Positions 34,232-36,956 of a DNA stretch of 64,000 bases are shown here, in pieces. Under the pieces are notes generated by a model. That model saw only the letters and a list, made by a program, of their open reading frames with translations. It did no database searches and was not told where the DNA came from. Source of the stretch: an uncultured Planktomarina sp. (GTDB lineage: Bacteria > Pseudomonadota > Alphaproteobacteria > Rhodobacterales > Rhodobacteraceae); contig CALSQF010000008.1 of NCBI GenBank assembly GCA_943788425.1, positions 1 to 64,000 on the forward strand, written 5' to 3'. Position 1 is the first letter of the stretch, and every line of letters begins with the position of its first letter. Both the position numbers and the translations under genes were made by a program.

Positions 34232-35413
34232 CTACACGGCTTTTTTGAGCGCTTCAACCAAGTCAGTCTTTTCCCAACTAAAGCCGCCATCGGCCTCAGG
34301 CGCGCGGCCAAAGTGCCCATAGGCTGCGGTCCGTTGATAGATCGGCTTGTTCAAGCCCAAATGTTCGCGAATGCCGCGCGGCGTAAGATCCATAGACTGC
34401 GCCACCGCCCGTTCGATCGACTCTTCGGACAGCTCTGCGGTGCCATATGTATCCACATAAATTGACAAGGGCTTAGAGACGCCAATGGCATAGGACAATT
34501 GCAGGCAACAACGCTCTGCCATACCGGCCGCCACGATATTTTTGGCCAAATAGCGCGCCGCATAGGCCGCCGAACGGTCCACTTTGGTGGGATCCTTGCC
34601 CGAAAACGCGCCGCCGCCATGTGGCGCGGCACCGCCATAGGTATCGACAATAATCTTGCGCCCCGTCAAACCGGCGTCGCCGTCCGGGCCACCAATCACA
34701 AAAGTACCAGTTGGATTAACCCACCATTCGGTTTTGCCTGTAATCCAATCGGCCGGCACGACCGCGCGGATATAGGGCTCGACAATGCTGCGGATATAGG
34801 CACTGTCCTGATCTGCGGAACGGTGTTGCGTCGATAAGACAATCGACATGATCTCAACAGGCTTGCCGTTCTCATAGCGCAATGACAATTGCGACTTGGC
34901 ATCAGGTCCAAGGTCCGGCGCGCTGCCGTCTTTGCGCGCCTGGGCCAAACGCCGTAAAATCGCATGAGAATATTGGATGGGCGCGGGCATAAGCTCAGGG
35001 GTCTCAGTGGTGGCATAGCCAAACATGATCCCTTGATCGCCCGCTCCCTCATCTTTGTTTGCGCCGGCATCCACCCCTTGGGCGATATGCGCTGATTGTT
35101 CATGCAAAAGATTGGTGACTTCAACGGTTTTCCAATGAAACTTGTCTTGCTCATAGCCGATGTCTTTGATGCAACCCCGAGCGATTTGATCAATTTTCCC
35201 CATATGGTGCGACAGTTTTTCTTTGTCACTCAAGCCAACTTCGCCGCCAATAACAATGCGGTTTGTCGTGGCGAATGTTTCGGCGGCCACCCGCGCCTCC
35301 GGTTCTTCGGTTAAAAAAGTGTCAAGCACGGCGTCAGAAATTCGGTCGCATACTTTATCCGGATGCCCTTCAGAAACAGACTCTGAAGTAAAAATATAAT
35401 TTGATCTTGTCAT
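34232..35413 (-). CDS. metK: S-adenosylmethionine synthetase
   Basis: MetK makes SAM from methionine and ATP. The 393-residue protein has [24 protein letters not shown] at the N terminus, the [12 protein letters not shown] hexapeptide-like loop, [24 protein letters not shown], and the [20 protein letters not shown]-loop-like segment. The leader carries a SAM/SAH riboswitch that overlaps the Shine-Dalgarno region, so expression is expected to fall when SAM or SAH is abundant. It lies between lnt and trmB. Confidence 0.98.
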
Positions 35414-35417
35414 GGGG

Positions 35418-35462
35418 AGCGCTCCAATAAAATGTAAGCTGCGCCAGGAAGCCGTTGCAGCT
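35418..35462 (-). promoter_or_regulatory. SAM/SAH riboswitch in the metK leader
   Basis: On the minus strand the leader reads AGCTGC-AACGGCTTCCTGGC-GCAGCT, then a short A/T stretch, then ATTGGAGC just before the metK ATG. This matches the SAM/SAH RNA of Rhodobacterales: P1 stem (AGCTGC/GCAGCT), the conserved AACGGCTTCCTGGC core, and a pseudoknot between GCTTCC in the core and the GGAGC that serves as Shine-Dalgarno. Ligand binding should stabilise the pseudoknot and block ribosome access. Confidence 0.93.
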
Positions 35463-35467
35463 AAGGC

Positions 35468-35496
35468 TTCCTAAAAGTCCCACCGCGAGGCGTCAA
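35468..35496 (-). promoter_or_regulatory. Candidate metK promoter
   Basis: On the minus strand TTGACG (35496-35491), a 17-base spacer, then TAGGAA (35473-35468). The -35 is strong and the -10 weak. The predicted start near 35462 would be the first base of the riboswitch P1 stem. Confidence 0.42.
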
Positions 35497-36956
35497 TGAT
35501 AATCTCGCCCGCGCCTGTAAAAATGCCCCAGGATCAAGACTCCAACAAGGGTCAATAGGCCAAGCCAAGGATTTTTTGCATAAAATGTTGCTAGGCGGGG
35601 TCTGGGAATCGGCGCATCTAGCGCCCCGCGCTCGTGAAGATCCAACCGATCGCTTGACCGCCCCCAAGGATCAATCACAGCAGTGACGCCGCGATTGGCC
35701 ACCCGCAACATCGGCAGGCCCAGTTCAACGGCGCGGGCGCGCGCCTGGGCAAAATGCTGAGCCGGGCCCTGCCCCTCGCCGAACCAGCCATCATTGGTAA
35801 TCAACACCAACAGATCAGGACGGGTGTCGCCGCGTCCAACAAACTGCGGGAAAATCCCTTCATAGCAGATCAACGGCTGGAGCCGACCGATACCTTCGAT
35901 ATCAATTTGTGCCGGACCACTGCCAGCTGAAAATTCAGGGAAATCATACCCAAAGGCCCGAGCCAAATGGCTGAGGGGCAGATATTCCCCGAACGGCACC
36001 AAACGGCTCTTGTGATATTCGCCCTGAATCTCCCCTTGTGGTGCCACCACGCCCAGAGTGTTGAAATACTGGCCCGCCGGGTTGCGGCTCTGGTAGCCAA
36101 CCACCACATGCGCGCCCTGCGCCGCGCCGGCAATCTCGCGCCGGGCCAACTCTATGGGCAGATAGACCGAAGTTTCGGGCCAAATAATGAGATCAACCGC
36201 AGGCCCCGCGTGGGTAAGAGATAGATGCCTTTGATAGATTGCCTGCGTCTTGTCCGGGTTCCATTTGTTTTCCTGTGCCACGTTGGGATGTATCAAACGC
36301 ACAATCGGCCGGTTCTCATCTACCGGGCCGCTGCCTGGCCCCTGCACAGGCACGAAGGGCAAGGCGAGGCTCAGGGTCAAAATAACCAATCGCGGCATCA
36401 CCCGCCCCCGGGCGATCAGCGCCGCCAGGATCAGGGTCAAAAGACTCATGCCATGAGGTCCAATAATAGCCGCGAGTTGGTAGGCGATTGTGTCAATCCA
36501 CACATAGCCCAGCAAGGCCCAAGGAAACCCGGTGAACAGGTAGGAACGGGCGAGCTCAGCTGCCAATAGCGCGAGACAGACCCAAAGCCGCACACGCCCG
36601 CGTGCCAGTGCAAAAGCGCCGCCCCAAAACAGGGCCAATCCCCCCGCCATAGCCAGCAAGGCAAAGGGTGCAACCCAGGCAGTGCCGCGGCCCTCTACTA
36701 AGAAGGGCTCAACAATCCAAGCCAAGGCGACCAAAAAATAGCCAAACCCGAGGCCCAAACCGCGCCAGAAATGCGGCAGGCGGGTCTGCGGGCGGATTAT
36801 CCAAAATCCAAAGGCCAATCCGACAAGCGTAAGCGCTGGCTGATCCACAGGGGCCTGCCCCAGCCCAGCAAGCCCACCTGCCGCGACCGTCAAGGCCCCT
36901 TGCCCCCATGCTGGCGCTTGCGCCCAAAGCCTATGAGCTGCTGATGGCTCTAACAT
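35493..36956 (-). CDS. lnt: Apolipoprotein N-acyltransferase
   Basis: Lnt adds the third acyl chain to lipoproteins in the inner membrane. The 487-residue protein has about six to seven N-terminal membrane helices (to about residue 210) and a periplasmic nitrilase-like domain with Glu in LIIWPETSVYLP, Lys in EYHKSRLVPFGEYLP and nucleophilic Cys in LICYEGIFP, then a final membrane helix (LLTLVGVLILGHF). Its start overlaps the 3' end of corC by 26 bases. It is the last gene of the miaB-phoH-ybeY-corC-lnt block, and Pal in this window is one expected substrate. Confidence 0.96.
   Translation of the reverse strand: MLEPSAAHRLWAQAPAWGQGALTVAAGGLAGLGQAPVDQPALTLVGLAFGFWIIRPQTRLPHFWRGLGLGFGYFLVALAWIVEPFLVEGRGTAWVAPFALLAMAGGLALFWGGAFALARGRVRLWVCLALLAAELARSYLFTGFPWALLGYVWIDTIAYQLAAIIGPHGMSLLTLILAALIARGRVMPRLVILTLSLALPFVPVQGPGSGPVDENRPIVRLIHPNVAQENKWNPDKTQAIYQRHLSLTHAGPAVDLIIWPETSVYLPIELARREIAGAAQGAHVVVGYQSRNPAGQYFNTLGVVAPQGEIQGEYHKSRLVPFGEYLPLSHLARAFGYDFPEFSAGSGPAQIDIEGIGRLQPLICYEGIFPQFVGRGDTRPDLLVLITNDGWFGEGQGPAQHFAQARARAVELGLPMLRVANRGVTAVIDPWGRSSDRLDLHERGALDAPIPRPRLATFYAKNPWLGLLTLVGVLILGHFYRRGRDYH

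Follow-up and report, generated by a model that had tools for sequence, protein, structure and literature searches.

The SAM/SAH RNA is described as sitting upstream of metK in Rhodobacterales (PMC2864571, PMC4239095). In the published account of its mode of action, a ligand-stabilised pairing conceals the Shine-Dalgarno sequence (PMC7367207), and single-molecule work on this riboswitch reports slow refolding after vectorial release (PMC10516623). On the promoter side, the closest described class are the CarD-activated promoters of Rhodobacter sphaeroides, which are reported to lack the last T of the -10 box (PMC8407463). No paper on the promoter or the start site of SAM/SAH riboswitches was found among the titles listed by the literature searches, which covered few subscription journals. 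A family-wide comparison links this well-studied minimal riboswitch to its promoter and predicts the start of the metK mRNA. The riboswitch itself is already known, and a promoter fused to the aptamer is a modest new detail.

The element before metK in the window, which is the whole stretch of 64,000 nucleotides that was analysed, is an ordinary SAM/SAH riboswitch and a member of the known family. The Rfam covariance search accepted the motif claimed by the first-pass annotation and placed SAM-SAH (RF01727) at 35466-35420 on the minus strand with 49.2 bits against a gathering cut-off of 40, covering the whole model (1-49). This is the sole above-threshold Rfam match in the window. The score above the curated gathering cut-off, the position directly upstream of metK, the Rhodobacteraceae-type lineage and the Shine-Dalgarno sequence within the pseudoknot strand are as in the described SAM/SAH riboswitch (PMC2864571, PMC7367207). 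In addition, P1 covaries across the 18 leaders of the genus, with two-sided changes at four of its six pairs and 88.9 % of cells paired, and its covariation score was reached by 0 of 500 shuffles. The GGAGC in the pseudoknot strand, which faces GGCTTCC and lies 8 nt before the ATG region, is invariant across the same 18 leaders, so that the pseudoknot pairing itself shows no covariation. By analogy with its published relatives, the window riboswitch would bind SAM/SAH and repress translation (PMC2864571, PMC7367207). The positions given earlier for P1, the core, GGAGC, the TTGACG/TAGGAA boxes and an 8-nt complement of the core with its 11-nt loop were all found again in the sequence (Table 1). 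RF01727 was found once in the source genome, which is about 93 % complete; a second copy was looked for there and not found. As a separate observation, GGAGCGCTCC at 35425-35416 forms a perfect palindrome across the Shine-Dalgarno sequence just before the metK ATG, and the same letters occur in leaders L007, L071 and L184.

Table 1. Coordinates of the genes, promoter and RNA elements around the metK leader of the window.
Feature	Position	Strand	Basis
metK, S-adenosylmethionine synthetase	34232..35413	-	ORF; three Pfam SAM synthetase domains; ATG 35413-35411
SAM/SAH riboswitch RF01727	35420..35466	-	Rfam 49.2 bits; between lnt and metK
Shine-Dalgarno GGAGC, pseudoknot partner of core	35421..35425	-	sequence, Rfam; role as described in PMC7367207
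P1 3' strand GCAGCT	35437..35442	-	sequence; P1 two-sided changes
Aptamer core AACGGCTTCCTGGC	35443..35456	-	sequence and Rfam match
Core segment GGCTTCCT, partner of upstream complement	35446..35453	-	read from sequence
Loop TTAGCTGCAAC, 11 nt between AGGAAGCC and GGCTTCCT	35454..35464	-	sequence
P1 5' strand AGCTGC	35457..35462	-	sequence; P1 two-sided changes
Predicted transcription start, A35462 or G35461	35461..35462	-	predicted from -10 position; spacing comparison
AGGAAGCC, complement of aptamer core; overlaps -10 box and discriminator; carried by read-through RNA only	35465..35472	-	sequence, conservation and folding tests
-10 box TAGGAA, no final T	35468..35473	-	sequence; TA invariant in 18 genus leaders
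-35 box TTGACG	35491..35496	-	sequence; TTGAC invariant in 18 genus leaders
lnt, apolipoprotein N-acyltransferase	35493..36956	-	ORF; Pfam CN_hydrolase and LNT_N; upstream of metK

The comparison was based on genomes of the genus and of the family. The riboswitch was found in 18 of the 20 genus genomes, 17 times over the cut-off. For the other two, G010 (listed as 94 % complete) and G017, neither a riboswitch nor a metK match was found, which may be due to assembly gaps. In the family, 347 of 395 genomes had a match and 342 of them were over the cut-off, counted under stricter filters that lose weak matches. Outside the genus, 160 of the 344 family matches were used, chosen among the highest- and the lowest-scoring ones and not from the middle, together with 80 loci from a metK scan. 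The set of 222 distinct leaders goes back to 259 loci: L199 was skipped because it lies at the same place as L018, an aptamer was recognised by pattern in 228, the 30 loci without aptamer all came from the metK scan, and five exact duplicates and one short leader were removed. An Lnt frame was found in 218 of these 222 leaders. Another set kept 167 of 179 anchored loci after dropping 11 with weak anchors and one that was too short, and the complement was counted in 166 of them, excluding one with an N. The metK tree includes 16 of the 18 genus loci, as L008 and L014 were too short.

A promoter resembling TTGAC[CG]-N17-TA, with a score of at least 8.5 of 10, is located just upstream of the aptamer in 200 of the 222 distinct leaders, and the spacer is 17 nt long in 194 of these 200. 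Within the 75 nt that precede the core, 139 of 167 leaders carry the exact form of this motif, compared with 33 of 33,400 shuffled versions and 0 of 167 control stretches taken 200-275 nt upstream. The metK promoter, predicted to be of the sigma70 type, is therefore well supported by comparison. A T at the last position of the -10 box is present in 1 of the 200 strong promoters and absent from 199, which agrees with what is reported for CarD-activated promoters (PMC8407463). The TTGAC -35 box, the -10 box starting with TA, the 17-nt spacer and the missing final T are all sequence features shared with these alphaproteobacterial sigma70 promoters, for which the CarD data come from another genus (PMC8407463). 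The window promoter shows the same combination, with TTGAC at -35, 17 nt between TTGACG and TAGGAA, and a -10 box without final T. This site was passed over by the generic promoter scan, because that scan demands a T at the last -10 position.

By the score used, 22 of the 222 leaders have no strong promoter. Some of these weaker-scoring leaders carry TTGCAA where the -35 box is expected. In L034, L063, L080, L087, L137, L170 and L193, which were scored, and in L250, which was judged by eye, CATTGCAAA replaces TTGAC at the -35 place and is surrounded by a shared block, and this group could perhaps represent another promoter type or a regulator site; L080 and L087 also carry an altered core, GGCTACC.

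The distance between the promoter and the aptamer sets the genus apart. From the end of the -10 box to the core, it is 11 nt in 15 of the 18 genus leaders, 12 in two and 13 in one, compared with 13-28 nt (mode 18, one leader at 13) in the 182 strong-promoter leaders outside the genus. P1 is 4-6 bp long in all 18 genus leaders, including 6 bp in the window, whereas, of the 182 others, 150 have a P1 of 7-9 bp (mode 7) and 32 one of at most 6 bp. If transcription starts at the seventh nucleotide beyond the -10 box, the unpaired 5' flank would amount to -1 to 2 nt in the genus, at most 2 in 18 of 18 leaders, and to 1-15 nt outside it, at least 3 in 162 of 182. Hence, the spacing of 11-13 nt and the short P1 together put the predicted mRNA start of the genus within 2 nt of P1. 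Since the genus represents one evolutionary origin, this contrast is descriptive. The Spearman correlation between P1 length and promoter distance is 0.24 over all strong leaders and 0.03 without the genus, so the two properties go together only as a genus trait.

In the window, A35462 is the sixth and G35461 the seventh nucleotide after the -10 box, and they are the first and second base of P1. We infer from the boxes that the metK mRNA starts at one of them, with an uncertainty of about 1 nt. The claim that the predicted start coincides with the first base of the riboswitch thereby gains from comparison, as the promoter keeps almost the same distance throughout the 18 genus leaders. Compared with other RF01727 leaders, the predicted transcript of the window would have no 5' flank, and the aptamer would form the extreme 5' end of the metK mRNA. 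A purine occupies the sixth and seventh nucleotide after the -10 box in 67 % and 72 % of leaders in the genus and in 66 % and 57 % elsewhere; this conservation at the predicted start is weak, and in the genus these bases also belong to P1. Streamlining features have been reported in one genus of the RCA cluster (PMC10675870). The genus of the window may belong to this cluster, and such features could suit a compaction of its leader. In-vitro work on the SAM/SAH riboswitch could adopt such a natural 5' end.

The best explanation as a whole, to which we assign a probability of about 0.85, is an RF01727 switch on metK with a promoter that starts the mRNA at P1 and an upstream complement that is incidental. 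The riboswitch would control the translation of metK, with a sigma70-type TTGACG-N17-TAGGAA promoter predicted to start the mRNA at A35462 or G35461, such that the RNA would open with P1 and have essentially no 5' flank. At high SAM/SAH, the core would pair with GGAGC as a pseudoknot and the Shine-Dalgarno sequence would be hidden, and at low SAM/SAH the ribosome would bind. The 8-nt complement would be -10 and discriminator DNA that is absent from the metK mRNA, and its pairing would be a chance event confined to one clade, with at most secondary consequences in read-through RNA. This explanation builds on the family match, the sequence and the conservation and spacing of the promoter; the start site is predicted, as is the ligand response, the latter from published relatives. 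Against it speak the weak -10 box, which has no final T, the fact that the start is a predicted one, and the 22 of 222 leaders in which no strong promoter was scored. The good conservation of the segment relative to the spacer in the clade of the window, the pairing of the helix on the genus alignment and the lowered P1 of genus read-through leaders, all given below, also count against it.

An unlikely alternative is that the fusion of promoter and aptamer is functional in itself, in that a fully paired 5' end slows decay by RppH and RNase E and P1 serves both as aptamer and as protective stem. The predicted flanks of at most 2 nt throughout the genus, as against at least 3 nt in most other leaders, would fit this idea, as would reports that RppH requires at least two unpaired nucleotides at the 5' end and prefers three (PMC7144940) and that 5' structure stabilises some mRNAs (PMC3997798). 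However, the RppH rule comes from other bacteria, the start is predicted to about 1 nt, and the spacing is accounted for equally well by drift or by a leader that has become compact. Moreover, P1 length is unrelated to promoter distance outside the genus, and the published P1 forms with and without ligand (PMC7367207), so that any protection would not depend on SAM. Rather improbable, too, is a wider version in which +1 became the first base of P1 in the genus, P1 shrank to the transcript, the paired 5' end may protect the mRNA, and the lnt read-through RNAs of one clade are in addition locked out of the SAM response by an 8-bp helix.

This helix is the subject of a further alternative, which goes back to the first-pass annotation and which we consider very unlikely. 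It assumes two transcript types: short mRNAs that respond to SAM, and mRNAs reading through from lnt that carry AGGAAGCC, pair it with the core as an 8-bp hairpin at the expense of P1 and the pseudoknot, and are translated at any SAM level. Mutually exclusive helices, upstream or downstream, are a general concept among riboswitches, and the helix of the window would likewise exclude P1 and the pseudoknot in read-through RNA. It differs from such systems in that it is not conserved and that one of its arms lies outside the predicted metK transcript. No terminator-like site is listed between lnt and metK, which would allow such RNAs, and an intrinsic terminator in this gap was accordingly dropped as a candidate.

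The occurrence of the complement does not point to a general element. When the 40 nt before P1 were dinucleotide-shuffled, 59 of 20,000 versions had eight contiguous Watson-Crick pairs to the core, and among 1000 shuffled versions of the 110-nt leader 43 had some 8-bp hairpin; as a post-hoc find, the window complement is mildly unusual, roughly a 1-in-23 event. The exact complement with eight Watson-Crick pairs is present in 3 of 166 leaders, where about 0.5 are expected, namely the window (L001), L005 and L007. The sister leaders L002-L004 have six Watson-Crick pairs, or nine with G-U. Allowing G-U, at least nine pairs are found in seven leaders against about 2.2 expected, and six of the seven belong to the clade of the window. 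These six complement-bearing leaders (L001-L005, L007) form one clade with a support of 100/100 in the metK tree of 23 rows.

The suggested covariation of the complement among relatives did not appear, as the genus alignment has zero two-sided changes for the upstream helix, although the core arm is nearly invariant and this test therefore has little power. The helix pairs in 71.8 % of the cells of this alignment compared with 26.8-53.5 % when slid, as is commonly the case for a structure derived from one of the aligned sequences. In the six leaders of the clade, 1 of 8 columns varies in the segment and 8 of 17 in the spacer, so that the segment is the better conserved of the two. Five of the eight AGGAAGCC bases lie in the -10 hexamer, and this overlap would give another reason for the conservation of the segment. 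The upstream segment probably belongs to the promoter and pairs with the core by chance; it illustrates how a regulatory switch can be suggested by an 8-bp complement that overlaps a promoter.

Folding supports the helix in the window itself, within predictions that ignore the pseudoknot, the ligand and the cotranscriptional order. P1 has a probability of 0.89 in the short leader, and in leaders starting at 35473 or further up the helix reaches 0.98-1.0 with P1 near 0; the helix fold has -21.1 kcal/mol, the best P1 fold of the same RNA -17.0. The helix lies at 0.91-1.0 at every length folded in the read-through leaders of the window, L005 (0.91-0.99) and L007, and is thus the prevailing structure in three leaders, out of 18 in the genus and 6 in the clade. 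In contrast, its probability in L002-L004 is 0.11-0.17 when 17 upstream nucleotides are included and 0-0.04 when 60 are, and 0.995 is attained among them only by L002 at 29 nt, although P1 is still low via other pairings in several of their longer folds.

The family-wide fold test covered 17 of 18 genus leaders and 197 of 204 others, leaving out those with a P1 below 4 bp or an N, with 20 mononucleotide shuffles each. Outside the genus, the mean P1 probability of 60-nt read-through leaders is 0.71 in native form versus 0.66 with shuffled upstream sequence, with 24 of 197 below 0.1. In the genus, it is 0.41 versus 0.67, with 7 of 17 below 0.1; this figure goes the way of the first-pass annotation, but six of these 17 leaders are the clade of the window, and in L013 and L017 it is other pairings that displace P1. 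The predicted contrast between short and read-through folding thus holds for the window, while over the 197 leaders outside the genus the native upstream sequence costs no more P1 than a shuffled one. Likewise, the competing helix is near-complete in the read-through fold of the window, but as a general mechanism it falls short, and we rejected it as a conserved element owing to its restriction to one clade, its erratic folding in the sisters and the lack of a family-wide effect. By these folds, the helix would dominate any read-through RNA of the window, and a recent, clade-specific effect may exist; such RNA, if present in the species of the window, could escape SAM control.

We give the least credence to metK being made mainly from operon transcripts begun upstream of lnt, with the TTGAC/TA pair as a minor promoter, since the 79-nt gap between the two genes on one strand and the unlisted terminator would favour it but an idle site would not be kept as a strong promoter with a nearly constant spacer across the family.

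At the boundary to lnt, the TGA stop at 35495-35493 falls within the -35 box. Such a TGA inside the -35 TTGAC is seen in 88 of 196 leaders, the window included, and in 45 of the 196 the -10 box opens with TAA or TAG; chance alone would often place such stops where an open frame enters a promoter. In L003, L004 and L005, the lnt frame crosses both the -35 and the -10 box to end in a TAG that overlaps the beginning of P1, and coding sequence, riboswitch and promoter thus share DNA.

Elsewhere in the window, no tRNA genes were found, and three further Rfam matches, all under their cut-offs, were rejected as other RNA families and taken as chance or coding similarity. A match to PYLIS_3, the Rfam family for the mttB pyrrolysine insertion sequence, is located at 54187-54088 on the minus strand and stays below its cut-off with 34.4 against 38 bits. 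It sits inside an open 510-aa ORF (55219-53687) and probably reflects coding similarity to an mttB without pyrrolysine.
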